This document shows positions 1-57,242 of a DNA stretch of 64,000 nucleotides, piece after piece. The notes beneath the pieces were generated by a model. It worked only from the letters and a program-made list of their open reading frames with translations. It was not told where the DNA came from and made no database searches. The DNA is from Bacteroidales bacterium (GTDB lineage Bacteria > Bacteroidota > Bacteroidia > Bacteroidales > JAADGE01): contig JAKISF010000003.1 in NCBI GenBank assembly GCA_021648725.1, positions 1 to 64,000 of the forward strand, in the 5' to 3' direction. How positions within the stretch are numbered: the first letter of the stretch is position 1; every line of letters starts with the position of its first letter. The translations under genes were made by a program, and so were the position numbers.

Positions 1-143
1 CTATATTTTTCGATTTTAAATTTTACAAAAACACAAATCCAAATTTTTGACTTGTATTTTTGTGATGATAAAATAAAAAAATCAGAAATAAGCTGTTTTT
101 AAGGCCGAGAAAATCAGCAAGCCCTAAATAAAATACTACTGAC

Positions 144-12629: not shown

Positions 12630-13193
12630 GTGCTTATTATAGAAAAACTTCTATCTGTTGACACAGAGCTTTTTTTGTTTTTGAATCAATTTCATAATAA
12701 CTTTTTCGATGTTATTATGAGGCAAATCAGTTCTAAAATAATTTGGCTTCCTCTGTATCTGTCAGTACTTTTTTTTATTTATAAACGGTTTAAACTTAAA
12801 AAAACAATTTTACTTTTAATTTCTTTCGGCTTTTTAATTGCATTCAGCGATCAAATTTCCGTTCAGCTTTTTAAAAATGTATTCCAACGCTTGCGTCCGT
12901 GCTTTAACCCTGAAATTCAAGATTTAACCCACGTCCTTTCATTGCCCGGAAGTCGCTACGGTTTTGTATCTTCACATGCTGCAAACTCATTTGCATTTGC
13001 ATTTTTATCTTTACTTATTTTCAGAAACAAAAACTATACAATTTTTATTTTATTCTGGGCATTTACTGTATCCTACAGCAGAATATATTTGGGAGTTCAT
13101 TACCCGTCGGATATTATAGGAGGTGCTGTGTTAGGAGTTTTTATCTCTGCTTTAGTTTATATAATTATTAAACCCCGGATTTTAATTAAGTAA
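12630..13193 (+). CDS. PAP2-family membrane phosphatase
   Basis: A 187-residue integral membrane protein with about five hydrophobic helices. The three PAP2 motifs are visible: KNVFQRLRP (K-x6-RP), a GFVSSHAAN motif where PSGH is usual, and SRIYLGVHYPSDIIGG with the catalytic His and Asp. Family members remove phosphate from lipid phosphates such as undecaprenyl-pyrophosphate, lipid A or phosphatidic acid; the substrate here is open. The start codon is GTG at 12630, with no upstream ATG in frame. It ends 5 bp from a convergent gene. Confidence 0.9.
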   Translation: MLIIEKLLSVDTELFLFLNQFHNNFFDVIMRQISSKIIWLPLYLSVLFFIYKRFKLKKTILLLISFGFLIAFSDQISVQLFKNVFQRLRPCFNPEIQDLTHVLSLPGSRYGFVSSHAANSFAFAFLSLLIFRNKNYTIFILFWAFTVSYSRIYLGVHYPSDIIGGAVLGVFISALVYIIIKPRILIK

Positions 13194-27583: not shown

Positions 27584-27656
27584 GGCTCCGTAGTTCAATG
27601 GATAGAATATCAGATTTCGGCTCTGAGGGTTGTGGGTTCGAGTCCCGCCGGGGTCA
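27584..27656 (+). tRNA. tRNA-Arg (anticodon UCG)
   Basis: The 73-nt sequence folds as a standard cloverleaf: acceptor GGCTCCG/CGGGGTC with wobble pairs, a D-arm GTTC/GAAT, an anticodon arm CAGA/TCTG with loop TTTCGGC (anticodon TCG after the invariant T33), and a T-arm GTGGG/TCCCGC with loop TTCGAG. CCA is not encoded. Its 3' 16 nt plus 7 downstream bases form the left attachment repeat of the island. Confidence 0.92.
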
Positions 27657-27663
27657 CTAATAT
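27641..27663 (+). repeat. attL: left copy of the 23-bp att repeat
   Basis: It covers the last 16 nt of tRNA-Arg (T-arm 3' strand and acceptor) and 7 bases beyond. It is identical to 57220-57242, and sequence similarity falls off directly outside it. Confidence 0.9.
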
Positions 27664-27862: not shown

Positions 27863-28669
27863 ATGGCTAAACAGAAAGGACCTATTAAATACATCGGAAC
27901 ATTAGGCGACATCCGACATTTCAAAATCAAGAACACAGAAGGATATTTTGCCGGAATGATTGGCGGCCCAACAGCCGAACAAATTAAAACAGACCCTGCT
28001 TTTGCTCGTACTCGTGAAAACATGAGTGAGTTCGGTGGTTCTGCAATTGCTGCAAAAGCTGTTCGAGTTGCTTTTGGTGAACTTGTACAAAGTGTTGCAG
28101 ATTCACGAATAACCGGACGTTTAACTGCGTTAATGAAAAAGATTAACAAAGAAGATACAACCGGAATAAGAGGACAACGACCGATTTTAGTTACACAATA
28201 TCCGGAACATTTAAAAGGGACAGAATTTAATAAAAACATCACTTTCGGAAGTATTATGTATGCACCGTTCACAATTACTCCTAATGTTGACAGAAACAGT
28301 TCTGACCTCGTTATTCCTGCATTTAAACCAAAGAACAGTATAAATGCACCTGTCGGAGCAACACATTTCAGAATTGTAAATGCAATCGGTGTAATATCAG
28401 ACTATGCATTTGACCTGGATACTAAACAGTATGAAGCTGTTGATGATGCTTTGAATATGAAAATGAACATTGAATATTCTCCATATCTTGATTTGTCCTC
28501 TAATATCGGAACTGATACAACTATTACCGCTGCTCTTGCCGGTGCTCCTGTGATGTCTACGGATGTAATTGTATTGAATGCTGTCGGTATCGAATTTTAT
28601 CAAGAAGTAAATACTGAATATTATCTTTTTGCATCCGGACATGCTGCAAAAATTAAAAATACTTTCTAA
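27863..28669 (+). CDS. Conserved Bacteroidota protein of unknown function (MAKQKG family)
   Basis: A 268-residue protein starting MAKQKGPIKYIGTLGDIRHF. From memory, proteins with this start (MAKQKG...GTIGD, then DPAFxRTRENxxEF and a basic, Arg-rich helix) are common in Bacteroidota, often next to mobile elements; none has a function known to me. The N-terminal 130 residues are basic and partly helical, and the C-terminal half (NPFT-like strands, SDLVIPAFKP onward) is beta-rich. No signal peptide, motif or catalytic residue is evident. The start at 27863 is chosen because a full promoter lies at 27796-27826, so transcription begins after the ATG at 27824. It is the only plus-strand gene in the island and has its own terminator, so it is an independent unit. 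Confidence 0.7.
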   Translation: MAKQKGPIKYIGTLGDIRHFKIKNTEGYFAGMIGGPTAEQIKTDPAFARTRENMSEFGGSAIAAKAVRVAFGELVQSVADSRITGRLTALMKKINKEDTTGIRGQRPILVTQYPEHLKGTEFNKNITFGSIMYAPFTITPNVDRNSSDLVIPAFKPKNSINAPVGATHFRIVNAIGVISDYAFDLDTKQYEAVDDALNMKMNIEYSPYLDLSSNIGTDTTITAALAGAPVMSTDVIVLNAVGIEFYQEVNTEYYLFASGHAAKIKNTF

Positions 28670-28731: not shown

Positions 28732-28889
28732 ATATCCATAGCAATCATATACGACTTATATATGCTTTGTTTATGAAATAAGATACGGAACAAGCCAATT
28801 AACCGGAACATAGCTCAACCGGATGAACTCTTTTATTTACCTTTTCTTTTTACATATATTTTTAAAAGAAGAAAGAAAAAAAACGAGAA

Positions 28890-29086
28890 AAAAAAAGAAA
28901 AAAGAAAGCATTTTGTAAGGCGGTGTAGAAGGGTGTCAAGGTTTTTGGATATTTATTTTATGCCTTTGAAAGTTATTAAAAGATAAACATAAAAAAAATA
29001 TTCAAAACCCGCAGGGCTTGACCTTGATGCCCTTGTGCGGTTGTATGTGCGTACCGCCTATCTTTGCTTTCCTTTTTTATTTTTTG
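28890..29086. repeat. Imperfect palindrome of about 197 bp
   Basis: The left arm 28890-28962 pairs with the right arm 28988-29086 in blocks: the A-rich/GAAAGC tract with GCTTTCC plus T-rich; AGGCGGT with ACCGCCT; AAGGGTGTCAAGG with CCTTGATGCCCTT (two mismatches); and TTTTTGGATATTTATTTTATG with CATAAAAAAAATATTCAAAA. The right arm has extra bases: one block near 29010-29021 and one near 29035-29052. The 25-bp centre is AT-rich. It would form a long cruciform or RNA hairpin. Confidence 0.7.
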
Positions 29087-29609
29087 TACCCTGCCAATTT
29101 AACTGCAACTTTATTTTAGTCTTTTTCTTTTAAACCGGATTAAAACAAATAACAACAAATACAATATCAAACTGATTGCCGGATAAAACATATTTTGGGG
29201 TGGTGGTCGGGGACGTGGGGGGACATTGGGGTTTGGCGTGTGTTTTTGCTGTGGATGGTGCGGTTGAGAACAGGTGGCTTTTGTGGATGAAAATATTTGG
29301 TTTGTTTTTTATGTGGGTAGATTGTGTGGTTGATAAAAAACAAGCCGGATATTTTAAGTGCGGTTGTAAAGCTGCCTGTGTGTGTAGCGGTGGGTTTTAT
29401 GATTTACTGAACGTAGTTTACGGAGAGAAGAAAATTAGAAAATCCAAGGAGCGATTGGTGGTTATGACTTGCAAAAAACATGACAAAACCGTGCGGTTGC
29501 AAACCTTATGTTTTTTCTGAATTGACTTTCTTATTGATGCTTGGGGCGCGTATGTGCAGCAATAATTAAGTTAATAGAAGAAAAACATTGTGCGGATGTA
29601 TTTGTGCGG

Positions 29610-29679
29610 GCTATTTAACATAGTTGACTTATGGGACAATTTTTCTTTGTTCCCATAAGACGCAATTATGTTAAATAGC
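29610..29679. repeat. Strong hairpin with attC-like terminal boxes
   Basis: GCTATTTAACATA (29610-29622) is perfectly complementary to TATGTTAAATAGC (29667-29679), and inside it CTTATGGGA (29628-29636) is perfectly complementary to TCCCATAAG (29651-29659), with TTG/CAA pairing between. The outer ends contain ATTTAAC and GTTAAAT, which fit the RYYYAAC and GTTRRRY boxes of integron attC sites, and the total length is in the attC range. No integron integrase is encoded here, and the pairing continues where attC sites usually have an unpaired spacer. Confidence 0.65.
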
Positions 29680-29848
29680 TTTGCAGCAATTTATTTGGCG
29701 TGTCTTTTTGTTTGTGTGGTTGGCAGCTCTTTGTTTTTTGGTTTTGCCTTTTGAGTTATTAAAAAATAAAACCGGAAAACAATGTGCTGCTTGTAGAGGT
29801 TGTACAAAAAGCATGACGGATAAATTGCGTGTGCGGTTGTGTGGGGAG

Positions 29849-30430
29849 TTAATGTGTCTTAAAGCTATTCCATTTTGGCTTAAAGTGTAATACTAATAGT
29901 ATTTCAGCCAGATGGAGTTTAAAGTTATGTGTTTTTTTATTAATATCTTTTTCAATACGATGAAAGTAAACTTTTAGATTTTCTATATTCGGATGTTTTT
30001 CATATAGAGGCATTAAGTTGTAGTGATATTCCTTTTCTTCCATGAGATTTGCCCATGTTGCAGACTCTTTATTTTTTCTGATTAAGTGGTCTGCCATTCT
30101 CCGTCTTAAATCTCTTGAAATCCCGATATAAACAGGGTTATTCTTTTTTGTTGCCGAATCTTGTTCTGAAAAAATATAAACACCCATTAATTCAGACAAT
30201 TCATCTTTGGAAAATTCATTAAAGGCTTTAATAAACTTTTCATCTTGAAAGAAATATTTATCAATATAATCACCTTTATATTTAGCTTTCTCCTTTTTAT
30301 ATAGTTTTCTTACAGGAACAGATTTATTTAATTCAATATTATCAACTAACTCTTTAATAAAGTCATTATAATCAATCTCCGGAAACGTTTCTTTGTCAAA
30401 ATTTTTACTCATTTTCTGTGTCATTATCAA
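29849..30430 (-). CDS. GIY-YIG nuclease-domain protein
   Basis: A 193-residue protein. The C-terminal two-thirds form a GIY-YIG domain: GVYIF (83-87), VYIGIS (100-105) followed by Arg residues (RDLRRRMADHL), and a later Glu in HLAEILLV that can bind the metal. The N-terminal 80 residues are helical and charged and match nothing I recognise. GIY-YIG enzymes cut DNA by a one-metal mechanism; here it may be a restriction or repair-like nuclease of the island. It is the last gene of the defence run, separated by about 90 bp from the small HTH gene. Confidence 0.82.
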   Translation of the reverse strand: MIMTQKMSKNFDKETFPEIDYNDFIKELVDNIELNKSVPVRKLYKKEKAKYKGDYIDKYFFQDEKFIKAFNEFSKDELSELMGVYIFSEQDSATKKNNPVYIGISRDLRRRMADHLIRKNKESATWANLMEEKEYHYNLMPLYEKHPNIENLKVYFHRIEKDINKKTHNFKLHLAEILLVLHFKPKWNSFKTH

Positions 30431-44901: not shown

Positions 44902-46998
44902 TTATAAAAACCATAAATTCTTTTTGCCGAATGGGGGCAGTGTGTTTCCTGTGAAATAAGGGAAGAGTTCTGCGACCATCTCCGGATATTTTATTGTTAC
45001 GGGTAATTTTTGTTGTTTTACTGATTTCCAATACATACGACTGAATTGGTATATTTGGTCTATTAATAAATTGATTGTTGTCTTGCTTTCAATCAGTTTT
45101 TCATCGGTTGACCAAAAACTTAATTTAACCGGAAAGGGGTAACTTTCAATTTTAAATTCAGGATTGCTGCCGTATCTTGTATTGTTGCATAAGAGGTATT
45201 GACTTTTGCCAATTTTTAGTGATGTTCCGCTTAAAGGAATTAAATTGTTAAAATTTGTATCAAAAGGAACGTAATCAAAACTTTCTGTTTTGTTTATCGT
45301 TACTATTATTATCGGAACATTATAGTTGAGGCTTTGCAGGGCTTCTTGTATTGGTCTTATGTTTTTGTTTGACATGGTTTTGTAGAAATGGATAATAAGA
45401 CGTTTTATGTCTTTGTTATCTTTCTTAAATTTTTCTACTGCTGTTCTTATTGAACCTGCCAGTTTAATCATGTTGTTTTCTCGGAAAGCGTCAAAACTTT
45501 GAAAGTGTCCTTCGTTTGAGAAAGAAAAAGCACTGCCGATATATCGGGAATCAAATTTTAAAGATTTGAATGCTCCGATGCCTACTATTAGTTCTTTTTC
45601 TACTGTTCGTTCCAGTCTCCACGGTATTCCGTCAAGTTTTGCGGATATTGATACAAAAATATTTTGTAAGGTCCACTCAAAGCCATAACCTCCAATATTA
45701 TCAATATTTATGACTTGTGACGTGATACCCGGTTTTAATAATGCTTCTTTTATAAGGTAATACGCTCTGTGTTGTTCCGGATTAGATTCTGTTTTACTAA
45801 TCGGACTTATGTATATTGCTATGTATCTTTTATTATTTGTCTTATAATCGTTTTTTTCTATTGCTTTTAATACTTCGGGAGCCGGATTGTTTATATTTTC
45901 AAAAAGTATATGACCGGCTTTATAATTTTTATGTGTTACTCCAATATATTTTGATATGCCTGCATATATTGAGTTTCCGTTTTTATCTTTTGCTATGGGT
46001 TTGTCGTATTTTGAAATTGGTTTTTTGCCTTTAAAATAGTCGTCAAATTCCTTAACTTTCTTTTCATGGTCTTTATGACAGATATAGAAAAACTCAATGT
46101 CTTGTGAGTCGGGCGGATGTTTGTAAACTCCTGAATTGATACCAAACTTCGGACTGATATTGGTTTTTTCTTGTCCGAATATCATTTTATTACTGTCGTG
46201 AGATGTTGAAAATATGTTATCCGGATTGAAGCTTATAAATTCATTTGTATTTATAGGAATTATATTTTTAAAGTCGCTTGTAATGATATGCTTTTTAAGA
46301 AAATCATTAATGAGTGTATAGTGCTTTTTGTATTTGTTAACTATCTTAAAGGTATTATCAAACGGAATATTCAGACTGTTTTTGAGATTGTAGTTTAGTG
46401 CCGGATATACGTTTTGTAATTCATATTTTGCTTGGTCGGGTAAGTATTTGTATTTATGAATATGTTTGTTCCAGATTACTCTTGTGTAGTCATCTTTATC
46501 AATGTCATCCAATTCAAGAATACTTTCTTTAAATACTTTTGAGAGTGCATGGTAGGCAATCAGAAGTTCCGGATAATCTGAAACTCTGCTGTTTTGAACT
46601 CTTAACCGGAAAACATGGTATGCATTAAATTGTTCATCGCTTTCTTTTTCATCTTTAAACCATACTAATAAATCGTTTATGAAATCGAATTGTATTGCAT
46701 CTGCTACATTTTTGAAATATTCGTAAATCAAATATGTGTAATAATGGTTTGCAAATGTTGTGCTTTCTTTTAGGTTTACGGTTAGGTTTATGTCTTCGGA
46801 AGTTGATTTGAAATCGGTATATAAATATTTTATTTCATCATACTTTTCAGAATCTGCCTGTTCCTGTAAATTGGTCGGACATTCTTTTTTTTTGATAGGG
46901 AAAAAGCCTTGTTTTTTTTCGTAGGAAAAGGAAAAGTTTTTTTCATCTTCTTCGGGGTTGAAGGTTAGGATGTTTATTTTGATGTTTTGGTCAATCAT
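44902..46998 (-). CDS. Prokaryotic Argonaute, long type, PIWI catalytic residues missing
   Basis: A 698-residue Argonaute. The MID domain shows the four 5'-end-binding residues Tyr413, Lys417, Gln428 and Lys454 (YYLIKEALLKPGITSQV; SAKLDGIPW), with the spacing of Rhodobacter Ago. The PIWI domain runs from about 468 to the end (LIVGIGAF; RLIIHFYK; MYWKSVKQQKLPVTIKYPEM; C-terminal LWFL). The first catalytic Asp is Gly475, the HRDG-type motif is HFYK (537-540), and Lys670 sits where the last tetrad residue is expected, so slicing is very unlikely. The N-terminal 400 residues are divergent. Inactive long Argonautes act with partner effectors; here the next gene is hsdM, 21 bp away. Confidence 0.9.
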   Translation of the reverse strand: MIDQNIKINILTFNPEEDEKNFSFSYEKKQGFFPIKKKECPTNLQEQADSEKYDEIKYLYTDFKSTSEDINLTVNLKESTTFANHYYTYLIYEYFKNVADAIQFDFINDLLVWFKDEKESDEQFNAYHVFRLRVQNSRVSDYPELLIAYHALSKVFKESILELDDIDKDDYTRVIWNKHIHKYKYLPDQAKYELQNVYPALNYNLKNSLNIPFDNTFKIVNKYKKHYTLINDFLKKHIITSDFKNIIPINTNEFISFNPDNIFSTSHDSNKMIFGQEKTNISPKFGINSGVYKHPPDSQDIEFFYICHKDHEKKVKEFDDYFKGKKPISKYDKPIAKDKNGNSIYAGISKYIGVTHKNYKAGHILFENINNPAPEVLKAIEKNDYKTNNKRYIAIYISPISKTESNPEQHRAYYLIKEALLKPGITSQVINIDNIGGYGFEWTLQNIFVSISAKLDGIPWRLERTVEKELIVGIGAFKSLKFDSRYIGSAFSFSNEGHFQSFDAFRENNMIKLAGSIRTAVEKFKKDNKDIKRLIIHFYKTMSNKNIRPIQEALQSLNYNVPIIIVTINKTESFDYVPFDTNFNNLIPLSGTSLKIGKSQYLLCNNTRYGSNPEFKIESYPFPVKLSFWSTDEKLIESKTTINLLIDQIYQFSRMYWKSVKQQKLPVTIKYPEMVAELFPYFTGNTLPPFGKKNLWFL

Positions 46999-51660: not shown

Positions 51661-53856
51661 TTATTCTTTTAACCAAGCACCTACCGTTGATTTACCTTTT
51701 CCAACATATACAGCAATATCTCTGATGACCATCCCTTTTTCTGATAAAAGTTTTGCAACAGATTTCATATTTAATGATGCCGGATTATCTGCATTTTCAA
51801 TTTTGTCAATTACTCTTATTGCATTTTCTTTGAAATATTCGATTAGTTCTTTTGCTCCGGATAATGCTTTTAGACTGACATTTTCTTTATTGTCTTCACC
51901 GGATGCCCAATACAGCATTTGTAAGAGCAAAGCAAAACGTGAAATATAAGATACATACTTTGAGTATAAGCTGCGTATTTGTTCCGGTATGTTATCGTCA
52001 TTGATTAGGTCTGTATTTTGTTTATTCCATTCTAAAAATGCTTTTTTTGCATCAACAGAAAAGTTAAGTGTTTCGGGTTCTTGTTCTGTTAAAGGGTTTT
52101 GGTATTCGGTTAGATTATATAACTTGATGATTATTTCTTTATATTTCTCTGTCAGCTCTTGCGACATTTCTTCATCATCTAAATACGGTTTTTTTAGATT
52201 CTCCGGATAGGCAAATAAAATTCTGTCAGTGAAACCGTTTTTATTCATTTTGTCTTTTGCAAACTCATCTAAAATTGCCGGTTGTATTGTTCCGCAAACA
52301 GAAATAAACGGATTAGGAATAAATATAGGTTTACCTGTTTTTCGATTTACTGTTATAGTTGTACCACTCCAATTGCTTAACCAAAATTGTTGGTCGCTTC
52401 CTTTGTGATAACGGTTAAAGTCATTTAACCAGCCTGTTAATTCATCTTTGAATACTCCCAATCCTCTTTTATTATTGCTGTGAACTTCATTTAATGCTTC
52501 GGGTGTGAAATCATTTACAATCATTTGTTTTAAAATCGGTTTTACCGGTTCATCAAAACCTTCGTTTTCTCTTTCCTTTTTGGAAAGACTGCTTACATGT
52601 TCGTATTTATCAAAATCAGAACTGAATGTATTATGATTTTTTTGGTCTATATTCAGAATCGGAGATAATGCAAATTTCAAAGGATGACTTTTGTTTATTC
52701 CGGGTCTGCCGACTAATGCAATGTATAAAATCGGGCTTTCTATCCATCCCTTTTTAATTTGAATATTCACAGCTCTACCGGTTGCAACAGATGTAGCAAA
52801 CAGAATTGATGATGCGAGATATTCAACCGGATATTTAAGTGTGTCGTTTGCTTTGCTGATAAACTTTTGTATGATTTCAGGAAAAACATGAACCGGAAAG
52901 GGGCGTGTTTTCCTTTTCTTATTTGTATTCCGGATTGTGCTTATTTTTTCATATTCCTGTAAAGTGTTTTCTAATAATAAATCATTTGAATCTTTACCGG
53001 ACGGGAATTGTATTGATTTGATTTCTTTAACAGGAATCTTATTTTTAATTATCAGGGATAAAAGTTCATTGTTAAACTTTTCTCCTGCTTCATCACCATC
53101 ACCGGAAAGATAAACAGATTTTCCGGATATGTATTTGCTTAACAAATTTGCATTCGGCAGATTGGTTGCTCCGAATGTTGCTATTGCTGATTTACCTATC
53201 TCTGCAAATGATATTGCATTATTAGGACCTTCACAAATAAAAACTTCATCAAATGCTTTATTGAAACAACTTATATATAAGGTGTCTGTTTTGTTTCCTG
53301 AAAACTGTGTCTTTGGAAGTCCTTTTTCTTTCAGTTCTTCTTCTGTTGCTATGTATCTTCTTTCGAATCCTGTATTATTATGATTAACGAATACAACAGA
53401 TGCCGGATATTTTTTATAAGCATTTGATTGTAAAAAATATTCATGTTTTGTTAGTCCTCTGCTATTTTGATAAGCAATTGCATGATCTTTATTATTCTTC
53501 CGGATGTTATACAATTGCTTTTCGGTTTTGGTATATTGGGTTGACATTGACAAATTAAGATTTAAGTCATTATTTATATTTTTCAGAATTTCAATAAAAC
53601 TTGTTTTTAAAATCAAATTATAATGAAATGCTGCAAAGTCGAACATATCACCTTTATAATAATCGTCTCCGTGGTCTTTGAAAAACCATTGGTCAGATTT
53701 GTTGAATATGCTTAAACTTGGTTTTGTGTCTTTGTAAAAGGGGTTTTTTATGTTTTTACATTTGTTCCCTTGCCGGTTGAGTTCCGGAATAACAAACTTG
53801 AAGAAATCAAACCCGTTATTTGTTGAACTCAATATATTTTCTTTATTTAGTTTCAT
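51661..53856 (-). CDS. Primase-helicase-like protein: CHC2-type N-terminus, Toprim, DUF3987, C-terminal HTH
   Basis: A 731-residue protein. The start at 53856 (MKLNKENILSS) is chosen because a longer frame to 54045 would run into the HTH_17 gene. Residues about 15-80 resemble a DnaG-type CHC2 segment without clear zinc cysteines (KNPFYKDTKPSLSIF, GDMFDFAAFHY). A Toprim domain has CEGPNNA (208-214) and DGDEAG (253-258). A DUF3987 helicase-like domain follows, with a Walker-A-like GRPGINKS (383-390). The last 30 residues look like an HTH (KSTVGAWLKE). Such proteins replicate mobile elements; here it is probably the replication protein of the excised island. Confidence 0.85.
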   Translation of the reverse strand: MKLNKENILSSTNNGFDFFKFVIPELNRQGNKCKNIKNPFYKDTKPSLSIFNKSDQWFFKDHGDDYYKGDMFDFAAFHYNLILKTSFIEILKNINNDLNLNLSMSTQYTKTEKQLYNIRKNNKDHAIAYQNSRGLTKHEYFLQSNAYKKYPASVVFVNHNNTGFERRYIATEEELKEKGLPKTQFSGNKTDTLYISCFNKAFDEVFICEGPNNAISFAEIGKSAIATFGATNLPNANLLSKYISGKSVYLSGDGDEAGEKFNNELLSLIIKNKIPVKEIKSIQFPSGKDSNDLLLENTLQEYEKISTIRNTNKKRKTRPFPVHVFPEIIQKFISKANDTLKYPVEYLASSILFATSVATGRAVNIQIKKGWIESPILYIALVGRPGINKSHPLKFALSPILNIDQKNHNTFSSDFDKYEHVSSLSKKERENEGFDEPVKPILKQMIVNDFTPEALNEVHSNNKRGLGVFKDELTGWLNDFNRYHKGSDQQFWLSNWSGTTITVNRKTGKPIFIPNPFISVCGTIQPAILDEFAKDKMNKNGFTDRILFAYPENLKKPYLDDEEMSQELTEKYKEIIIKLYNLTEYQNPLTEQEPETLNFSVDAKKAFLEWNKQNTDLINDDNIPEQIRSLYSKYVSYISRFALLLQMLYWASGEDNKENVSLKALSGAKELIEYFKENAIRVIDKIENADNPASLNMKSVAKLLSEKGMVIRDIAVYVGKGKSTVGAWLKE

Positions 53857-53881
53857 GGGTGACAGATTTTTATTGAGTTTA

Positions 53882-54160
53882 TTAAAAAGCCGGATTATAA
53901 TGTTTGTCCAAGTGTTTCTGAATGTCACTTGCTTTATAATAAATCTTTGCACCGATTTGACTAAAAGGCAGAATGCCTTTGTCTCTATAACTTTGGAGTG
54001 TTCTTTTAGATATGTGCAACAGTTCGCATACATCTTGAATGTCAAGCCATCTGTCTTCCAAAGGGTCTTTTCTGTTTATTTTTTCAACTCTTTCATTGAG
54101 TGTTTCAATTTGACTGATTAATTTCTCAAATTGTTCTGATGATATTATCATTGCTTCCAT
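53882..54160 (-). CDS. HTH_17/excisionase-like DNA-binding protein
   Basis: A 92-residue protein: an N-terminal coiled-coil stretch (SEQFEKLISQIETLNERVEKI), then a MerR/excisionase-type winged helix (WLDIQDVCELLHISKRTLQSYRDKGILPFSQIG). Proteins of this kind sit before the primase gene in many Bacteroidota integrative elements and act as excisionase or regulator. The primase gene starts 25 bp later. Palindromes at 54209-54220 and 54278-54287 lie upstream. Confidence 0.85.
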   Translation of the reverse strand: MEAMIISSEQFEKLISQIETLNERVEKINRKDPLEDRWLDIQDVCELLHISKRTLQSYRDKGILPFSQIGAKIYYKASDIQKHLDKHYNPAF

Positions 54161-55829: not shown

Positions 55830-57035
55830 TTAGTCAAAAAATTTATCCATTGCATCGTCAAGGTCTTGGTTGACAATTTTTGCATAGACTTGTGTTGTTT
55901 TGATTGATGAATGACCTAACAAACGTGAAACGTATTCTATACGCATTCCTTTCTTTAATGCTCTGGTTGCAAATGTGTGTCGGCTTGTATGGAAATGTAT
56001 GTTTTTATCTATCCCTGCCAATTTTGCAATTTTCTTTAAATCCGTATTTGTATATGCTGTATGTGATGAAATTGCTCTGAATAATGCACTTTCAGAATAT
56101 TCAATATCATTTTTCAGAAACGGAAAAATATAATGTTCTTTTTCTGCATCTTCTGTTTTATATTTTTTGATAATTTCTTTTGCTTTGTTCGGTAACTTTA
56201 TTGAAACTGTGGATTTTGTTTTTTTAGTTGTCATTAAGATTCTTTCACCGTCATAATCAGACCACCTTAATTGAAAAATATCTGATATTCTTAAACCTCC
56301 CGCGTAAGTAGCAAATACATATATATTCCTGTGGTGGTTTCTCATTGAGTTTTTTTCAAGTTGTAGTTCTTCAAATCTCCGGATTTCATCCTCTGTTAAA
56401 AATTCTTTTGTTGTTTTTTCTAATTTGAGTTTATATTTATGAAAAGGACTTTTTTCGTATGGTAAGATATCTTCATTAATAGCATCATTTATAACTTTTC
56501 TGATTACTTTCATATTTGAATGAATGGTATTTATTGAATTTCCTAAATTTTCAGATAAATATCTTTCATAACGTTTCAAAAATGTTACAGTCAATTCATT
56601 GAAAGTAATCTTTTTATCGCCTACATATTCGGAAAGTTTTGTGAAAACTGTTTTTGATTTTTTATAATAACTGAATTTGCCGCTTTTTTCAAGTGTGTCA
56701 ATGTATTCACTAAAATATTGCAAGAAACTATGAGGATTTGTTCCCATTATATTATCCTTAATACTTTTTGGGCTTACATATTTTGAATCTGCTTCCATTT
56801 CCAAAGCAACACCTTCCGCTTCTGCTACTTTATGAGCAATAAAATTATTCATTCTTTGTGAGTTCGGATGTGACTTTCTTACTCTTGATTGTCTTTCATT
56901 CCAATCTTTTATTAATATCTTTACACCCAAAGAAATAAATTTAGTTTTTCTGTTTTTAATAATCCGGATGTATAAAGGTGCTTCACCTTTTGAATTAATT
57001 TTGTTCTTTTTGAGAATTATTTTTACTGATGACAT
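55830..57035 (-). CDS. Tyrosine-type site-specific integrase
   Basis: A 401-residue phage-type integrase. The start at 57035 (MSSVKIILKKNKINSKGEA) is preferred over the ATG at 57086, because Bacteroidota integrases begin with this strand. An arm-binding/SAM-like N-terminal half (to about 190) precedes the catalytic domain, with Arg in GGLRISDIFQLRW, HFHTSRHTFATRA (His-x-x-Arg), LLGHSSIKTTQVYAKI (His and nucleophilic Tyr). It recombines the 23-bp tRNA-Arg att core for insertion and excision. It lies 184 bp from attR and is followed by a strong terminator. Confidence 0.93.
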   Translation of the reverse strand: MSSVKIILKKNKINSKGEAPLYIRIIKNRKTKFISLGVKILIKDWNERQSRVRKSHPNSQRMNNFIAHKVAEAEGVALEMEADSKYVSPKSIKDNIMGTNPHSFLQYFSEYIDTLEKSGKFSYYKKSKTVFTKLSEYVGDKKITFNELTVTFLKRYERYLSENLGNSINTIHSNMKVIRKVINDAINEDILPYEKSPFHKYKLKLEKTTKEFLTEDEIRRFEELQLEKNSMRNHHRNIYVFATYAGGLRISDIFQLRWSDYDGERILMTTKKTKSTVSIKLPNKAKEIIKKYKTEDAEKEHYIFPFLKNDIEYSESALFRAISSHTAYTNTDLKKIAKLAGIDKNIHFHTSRHTFATRALKKGMRIEYVSRLLGHSSIKTTQVYAKIVNQDLDDAMDKFFD

Positions 57036-57087
57036 AGCTCTTTGGATTTGTAATTTACTGGTATAAAGATAATAAAAATAATTCAAA

Positions 57088-57219: not shown

Positions 57220-57242
57220 AGTCCCGCCGGGGTCACTAATAT
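57220..57242 (+). repeat. attR: right copy of the 23-bp att repeat
   Basis: It is identical to the 3' end of tRNA-Arg plus 7 bases (27641-27663). No other tRNA sequence is present here, so the intact tRNA is at the left end. Confidence 0.9.

Follow-up and report, generated by a model that had tools for sequence, protein, structure and literature searches.

The window analyzed here is a 64,000-nucleotide stretch of a Bacteroidales bacterium genome, and all unprefixed coordinates refer to it. A tRNA-Arg gene (anticodon TCG; 27584–27657, plus strand), identified with ARAGORN and the Rfam tRNA model, serves as the target of an island. A 23-bp segment at its 3′ end (attL, 27641–27663, plus strand) is identical in blastn to positions 57220–57242 (attR, plus strand), and a tyrosine integrase gene with Phage_integrase, Phage_int_SAM_5, and Arm-DNA-bind_5 domains (55833–57086, minus strand; Pfam) lies beside the right copy. 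This exact repeat of the tRNA-Arg 3′ end, together with the adjacent integrase, identifies 27641–57242 as an integrated island. The 29.6-kb element is a defense island, whose cargo recognized with Pfam comprises McrBC, RhuM, YgjP, HsdR/M/S, and a Piwi-domain gene. The Piwi-domain (pAgo-like) gene, at 44905–46998 and flanked by a DUF1508 gene on one side and the HsdM/S genes on the other, is a possible Argonaute defense gene. A primase-like protein combining DUF3987 and Toprim domains is encoded near the integrase (51664–54045) and is possibly the island's own replication protein.

Near the left end of the island, behind the module gene F0 (27863–28666, plus strand, 268 aa), lies a G/T-rich zone that spans approximately 28835–29850 and is faced by the 3′ end of a GIY-YIG domain gene on the minus strand (29849–30430; ORF list and Pfam). 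The F0 protein has no Pfam, PHROG, or NCBIfam match, and its structure prediction from a three-row alignment reached a pLDDT of 36 and gave no usable fold; at other loci, a DUF6266 gene occupies the place of F0. The zone opens with a conserved block (28835–29086, plus strand; blastn) made of a purine tract, the inverted pair GTCAAGGTTTTT...AAAACCCGCAGGGCTTGAC, and the first copy of the octamer TGCGGTTG. For the longest ORF in the zone (29176–29520; 114 aa from a TTG start), Pfam gave no match. A first-pass annotation of this DNA had described the zone as devoid of coding sense, which the ORF and Pfam checks bear out, and the decayed coding gene that it had named as an alternative is contradicted by the same checks. 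The G/T bias that it had reported over 700 bp is equally real: the G+T content over 29177–29876 is 0.636, rank 4 of 1266 among 700-bp windows with either strand counted, the GC skew reaches +0.39, and the GC content exceeds that of the AT-rich surroundings.

The zone holds a cluster of short repeats. Five copies of TGCGGTTG at 29036, 29259, 29359, 29492, and 29832 (29036–29839 overall) all lie on the plus strand, and TTTGGCGTGTnTTTTTG occurs at 29232 and 29694, exactly as first reported. The window holds seven TGCGGTTG on both strands, against a mean of 1.05 and a maximum of 4 in 100 dinucleotide shuffles. The 3.24-Mb genome holds 99 on both strands, compared with 14 for the reversed pattern. 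At about one copy per 33 kb genome-wide, the octamer is less rare than the first-pass annotation had expected for AT-rich DNA, but the cluster itself stands and is far denser than the genome rate, at which five or more copies per 911 bp have a Poisson P of ~1.4e-10. Across 2000 dinucleotide-shuffled versions of the zone, the mean was 0.056, the maximum 2, and none reached five, so that the zone's own composition does not explain the cluster. Among 18 related zones, TGCGGTTG lies on the plus strand in five (10 copies, five of them the window's) and on the minus strand in one. A strict G-quadruplex pattern is present on the G-rich strand of 8/18 related zones and on the opposite strand of 0/18; the window has a cluster of G runs at 29197–29232 (plus strand, pattern search) and no strict G-quadruplex pattern. 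The TGCGGTTG cluster is beyond chance, but it is not the signal that matters.

The strand bias, the repeats, and the one-strand clusters of G runs in related zones are what an origin of transfer or replication for the island might display, and the first-pass annotation had proposed such an origin. No relaxase or Rep protein was found among the island proteins scanned with Pfam, which speaks against that proposal, as does the presence of the zone in modules that have no recognized relaxase or Rep. We regard an origin as very improbable. Searches of a plasmid collection and by distant blastn returned no match.

The signal that matters is hairpin A (29610–29679, plus strand), which was defined by DNA folding and by comparison with the genome's own dif site. 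The chromosomal dif of the group is ATAATTAATATTATGTTAA, single-copy in most of the genus, and the copy in this genome (G000:C6:38499–38517, minus strand) reads TTTGTCTCATAA-TTAATA-TTATGTTAAATAGAGC. Hairpin A contains two inverted dif-like sites. The left site, TTGTCCCATAA-GTCAA-CTATGTTAAATAGCCC, consists of a XerD arm (29611–29623), a 5-nt center (29624–29628), and a XerC arm (29629–29639). The right site, TTTGTTCCCATAA-GACGCAA-TTATGTTAAATAGCTT, has a XerC arm (29646–29658), a 7-nt center (29659–29665), and a XerD arm (29666–29678). The arms match the genome's own dif on the XerC and XerD sides alike. Folded as DNA, hairpin A has a z-score of −6.3 on the plus strand and −6.8 on the other strand, which none of 200 shuffles equaled. 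Pairing rebuilds a XerC and a XerD arm around an unpaired 5/7-nt center, whose mean of 6 equals the dif spacing, and the XerC side of one arm keeps a single base that is bulged or mismatched. In the window, this hairpin is intact and is the single folded site. That it consists of the genome's own dif in two inverted copies is well supported; its recombination we infer. The first-pass suggestions of decayed cassettes or of the origin of an excised circle came nearest to this result, in that the zone holds a folded dif-type site at the end of a mobile module and the proposed tie to DNA mobility is sound, but the key signal is the hairpin at 29610–29679, absent from the features that annotation listed, and not TGCGGTTG.

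The unequal centers of hairpin A follow a wider rule. A partner-blind scan for ATAA-N(4..8)-TTATGTTAAATAGC gave 131 distinct sites (at least 120 viral stretches and 24 of 395 genomes of the class). Among the matches listed, an inverted partner within 250 nt accompanies 8/12 sites with a center of 5 and 19/31 with a center of 7, compared with 4/83 with a center of 6 and 0/5 with a center of 4; a control with reversed windows found a partner in 3/262. All eight partnered center-5 sites among the matches listed have a partner with center 7. These counts include one hairpin (L638) twice, as center 5 and as center 7, and five of the 19 partnered center-7 sites belong to one near-identical inovirus-like group (L644, L674, L703 twice, and L720). 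Inovirus-like contigs L644 and L674, with a Zot-like ATPase assigned by eye, carry the partner at 97 nt and provide a natural positive control. Among the 18 hairpins parsed, exact 5/7 centers occur in 14, and the rest are 5/6, 6/6, 6/6, and 6/7; two further sites outside the parser are 5/7 by eye. A bulge or mismatch on the XerC side recurs in several sites (the window, L095, L579, and L759; by eye).

Comparison with other Bacteroidota DNA, as the first-pass annotation had suggested, places the zone in a recurring module, with the block found again in the modules of relatives. The first 250 bp of the zone recur at 91–92% identity in contig C27 of this genome and in G006, with weaker matches in others. 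The block adjoins F0 or DUF6266, and a DUF6943 gene is often present, oriented away from the zone. F0 was found in 8/60 genomes and DUF6943 in 6/60, counting the own genome and its relatives. In G006 and G012, the F0 module likewise lies directly behind tRNA-Arg; at other loci, it is isolated between chromosomal genes. A search of the order-level set with GTGTCAAGGTTTTTG gave 8/393 positive genomes, and viral scans with GTGTCAAGGTTTTTG and GGCGTGTCTTTTTG returned matches that we judged mostly due to chance. Contigs G006:C156, G012:C8, G057:C47, and G057:C52 stop a few hundred bases from the block or module, as is expected if near-identical zones within one genome break the assembly. A literature search on DUF6943 and DUF6266 found no paper.

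Several of these modules have phage neighbors. An endolysin gene lies next to the module in L497 and holin-like genes (by eye) in L496. DUF6943 is encoded in seven viral contigs, of which L577, L578, and L579 have contractile-tail baseplate genes and L579 also an integrase; a zone of the same kind is present in L577 and L579. The modules of L762 (G580) and of L575, which comes from the viral set, share 92% identity over 3.6 kb. The right end of the module is reproducible, falling at L762:9176 in both the L762–L575 and the L761–L762 comparisons, ~260 bp past hairpin A. Contigs L726, L761, and L762, which were found by the dif pattern alone, carry the F0 and DUF6943 module. The module has no recombinase of its own, and neither relaxase nor Rep is among its recognized genes; the module proteins gave no match to genes of single-stranded phages (Zot and others), and no microvirus capsid or Rep protein was recognized in the module.

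The folded dif is found in 8/17 module zones, or 6/15 without the two found by the dif pattern. In seven of the eight, the shorter center precedes the longer one when the strand is read from the block; the centers are equal in G035. Hairpin A could be a relic, left from a single-stranded phage or from a past Xer-using element, in a zone that is now inert, hitch-hiking palindromic DNA. The intact hairpin inside an island moved by a different integrase would fit such a history, as would the dispersed hairpin-B palindromes next to it, which have no fixed gene orientation, and the absence of the folded dif from 9/17 module zones, by which the module does not need a folded dif everywhere. Against a relic, both arms and the 5/7 centers persist at unrelated loci whose stems differ on both sides, and the two zones of genome G022 are ~90% identical compared with 50% for the neighboring DUF6943 proteins. 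We consider a relic rather unlikely. The two G022 zones (L495:13529–14981 and L496) may have been homogenized or exchanged independently of the DUF6943 gene, judging from these identities.

Downstream of hairpin A, hairpin B (29686–29828, plus strand) pairs GCAATTTATTTGGCGTGTCTTTT with AAAAAGCATGACGGATAAATTGC and has a DNA-folding z-score of −6.5. An earlier pair of the same motif, TTTGGCGTGTGTTTTTG (29232–29248) with CAAAAAACATGACAAAACC (ending at about 29492), spans 29232–29492 on the plus strand and has mismatched N/N′ positions. The repeat TTTGGCGTGTnTTTTTG is the 5′ arm of this palindrome. Its constant core sets GGCGTGT against CATGAC, with one position mismatched, one paired as G.T, and a T bulged out. 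Across 45 distinct copies, two of which are the window's own, N/N′ are complementary in 41, and outer pairs 4–6 are Watson–Crick in 42, 42, and 38. The copies were picked by the motif and its partner, which leaves N/N′ and the outer pairs, chiefly numbers 4–6, as the independent evidence. Short-loop versions are dispersed between genes in many Bacteroidota genomes, with no fixed orientation among the 45 copies. They are often preceded by a variable second hairpin, such as ACGACGGATGAAGTCCGTCGT (L059, L065, L088, L133, L155, and others), and the two together are a dispersed two-hairpin palindrome family with no Rfam entry.

REP palindromes are dispersed and intergenic and carry a conserved mismatch and bulge. 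Hairpin B resembles the REP/RAYT system in all these traits but differs from it in that 0/30 and 0/29 Y1-transposase loci carry the paired hairpin, and we rejected this assignment. Hairpin B has no Rfam match, and a literature search with its strings found nothing relevant; it is an undescribed dispersed palindrome.

Measured against shuffles, folding of the zone in the window is much stronger on the plus strand (z-score −9.5) than on the complement (−3.9; 20 shuffles each). This multi-hairpin fold, the compensating changes in hairpin B, and the raised GC content could be read as a structured non-coding RNA or a long leader from the G/T-rich strand, and a non-coding RNA was among the first-pass proposals. 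As a known family it fails: at the Rfam gathering score, only tRNAs were reported and no zone matched in the window or six related loci, and the loose-E-value matches, which put miRNA labels on the hairpins, were taken as chance. Hairpin B has no fixed gene orientation, its wobble pairs have no strand bias (G.T 7 versus A.C 5 in the six outer pairs), and both arms of hairpin A match a DNA recombination site, all of which makes an RNA improbable. The same wobble counts and a folding excess that is greater on the G-rich strand in only 6/14 zones (L496z left out, five shuffles, pieces of at most 950 nt) give no sign of a preferred strand as a general rule. The G/T bias may be due to folding needs or to something else.

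Folded sites also occur near chromosomal dif and near a xerD gene. In G516, dif is followed on its own strand by a 139-aa ORF, then one folded site, then a 79-aa ORF and another folded site. In both G604 and G442, the distance between dif and a folded site is ~0.5 kb. These three genomes account for the 3/17 center-6 loci with a folded site in reach (flanks of at most 1.5 kb), and in G632:C9 dif itself is one arm of an inverted pair. In G632:C72, a site of ~160 bp is repeated at 12691, 13545, and 14554 with 74–88% identity and unrelated small ORFs in between, and it is 77–79% identical to the site in G516. The XerD gene, which scores 336 bits against an equivalog cut-off of 329.6, lies 2.6 kb past the last copy, so that the array is 2.6–4.7 kb away. 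Units of one ORF and one folded site are found in G632:C72 and G516:C27; the window has a single site. ORF directions are mixed in the G604 and G632 arrays, which makes the cassette reading of the G632:C72 array suggestive rather than proven.

The wider surroundings of these sites include further genes. In L784 (G632:C72, 12631–18317), the ~160-bp folded-dif repeats with small ORFs are followed by an AbiEi-like gene (by eye), XerD, and an AbiEii-like gene (by eye). In L759 (G447:C40, 180–16099), a 7.3-kb unit is tandemly duplicated; it contains a primase and a pair of XerC/D-like recombinases immediately followed by a 5/7 site. Two tandem XerC/D-like recombinases lie beside Rhs-like genes in L759, L786, and L787, with a DnaG-like primase in L759 and L786.

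The bulged base, the unpaired center, and the arrays with small ORFs invite comparison with integron attC sites proper or with cassette ends, as do the hairpin ends, which we take to be like the RYYYAAC/GTTRRRY motif. The arms of hairpin A match the genome's own dif on the XerC and XerD sides, and we set the attC assignment aside. The recombinases tested score far under the integron-integrase cut-off of 265 (L784 132, L759 107, and window 70), and a true attC is hardly plausible. The resemblance to integron attC arrays, as described in PMC4792948, lies in a folded single-strand site, an asymmetric stem, and similar sites between unrelated small ORFs (G632:C72); the differences are the dif-derived arms, the absence of IntI, and the mixed ORF directions.

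A closer parallel is attP(+) of the Vibrio cholerae filamentous phage CTXphi, in which, according to PMC3089051, inverted dif-like sites within ~100 nt, with centers of 12 and 7, fold into one XerC/XerD site. Hairpin A shares with it an inverted dif-like pair, unequal centers (5/7 here), and the lack of an own recombinase. Unlike the system outlined there, the sites described here involve no filamentous phage and mostly have shorter loops, and the window element lies away from dif. Extrahelical bases are absent from the CTXphi stem according to PMC4792948, whereas a bulge or mismatch sits on the XerC side here. By analogy with such CTXphi-type (IMEX) attachment sites, XerC would catalyze a one-strand exchange at hairpin A. 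Bacteroidetes microvirus proviruses (BMV), according to PMC3091885, also use dif-like sites, with a second dif-like site in BMV4–6. They share with our locus the Bacteroidetes hosts, the dif-like sites, and the second site; they differ in that the window has an intact folded pair inside a non-viral island and the module has no recognized microvirus capsid or Rep. Arrays of folded dif sites did not appear in our literature searches on Xer, cassettes, and Bacteroidetes and on REP. Hairpin A extends folded Xer sites beyond filamentous phages, to a module for which the literature searched gave no description.

The zone forms the non-coding end of a small module. We favor, with a probability of about 0.58, the reading that its folded dif acts as a single-strand Xer site through which the module is captured, exchanged, or integrated. 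Hairpin A would form when its strand becomes single during replication, transfer, or rolling-circle copying. Host XerC and XerD would bind the folded hairpin, as they do with CTXphi attP(+), and exchange one strand with chromosomal dif or another folded site. Replication would then resolve the exchange, which would allow capture, exchange, or integration of the module or a neighboring gene with no need for an own integrase. The window island sits in tRNA-Arg rather than at the chromosomal dif, which is on contig C6. As the island that contains the module moved by means of its own tRNA integrase, the Xer site in the window is carried along and is not the insertion site. Counting against the single-strand Xer reading, the window hairpin is intact and no recombination product was seen, and the phage contigs that bear the module resemble tailed phages, whose genomes are not single-stranded. 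The presence of a folded dif in only 8/17 module zones, the failure to find a preferred strand by wobble pairs or by folding excess, and the mixed ORF directions of the G604 and G632 arrays also weigh against it.

A broader possibility, which we put forward tentatively and hold to be doubtful, is that Bacteroidota have an integron-like system run by host XerC/XerD instead of IntI. The folded dif with its 5/7 centers would correspond to attC and chromosomal dif to attI, and small ORFs or phage-derived modules would be captured beside dif or near xerD. If true, such a host-Xer cassette system would stand as a living intermediate that links CTXphi integration with integrons. The authors of PMC4792948 speculate that integrons arose from a viral, CTXphi-type system, and a family of folded dif sites with the 5/7 rule and an asymmetric stem, not confined to filamentous phages and located beside small ORFs at dif, would make this idea testable. 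The center length offers a simple search key for such elements, and folded dif sites would explain the movement of some Bacteroidota gene modules that have no recombinase.
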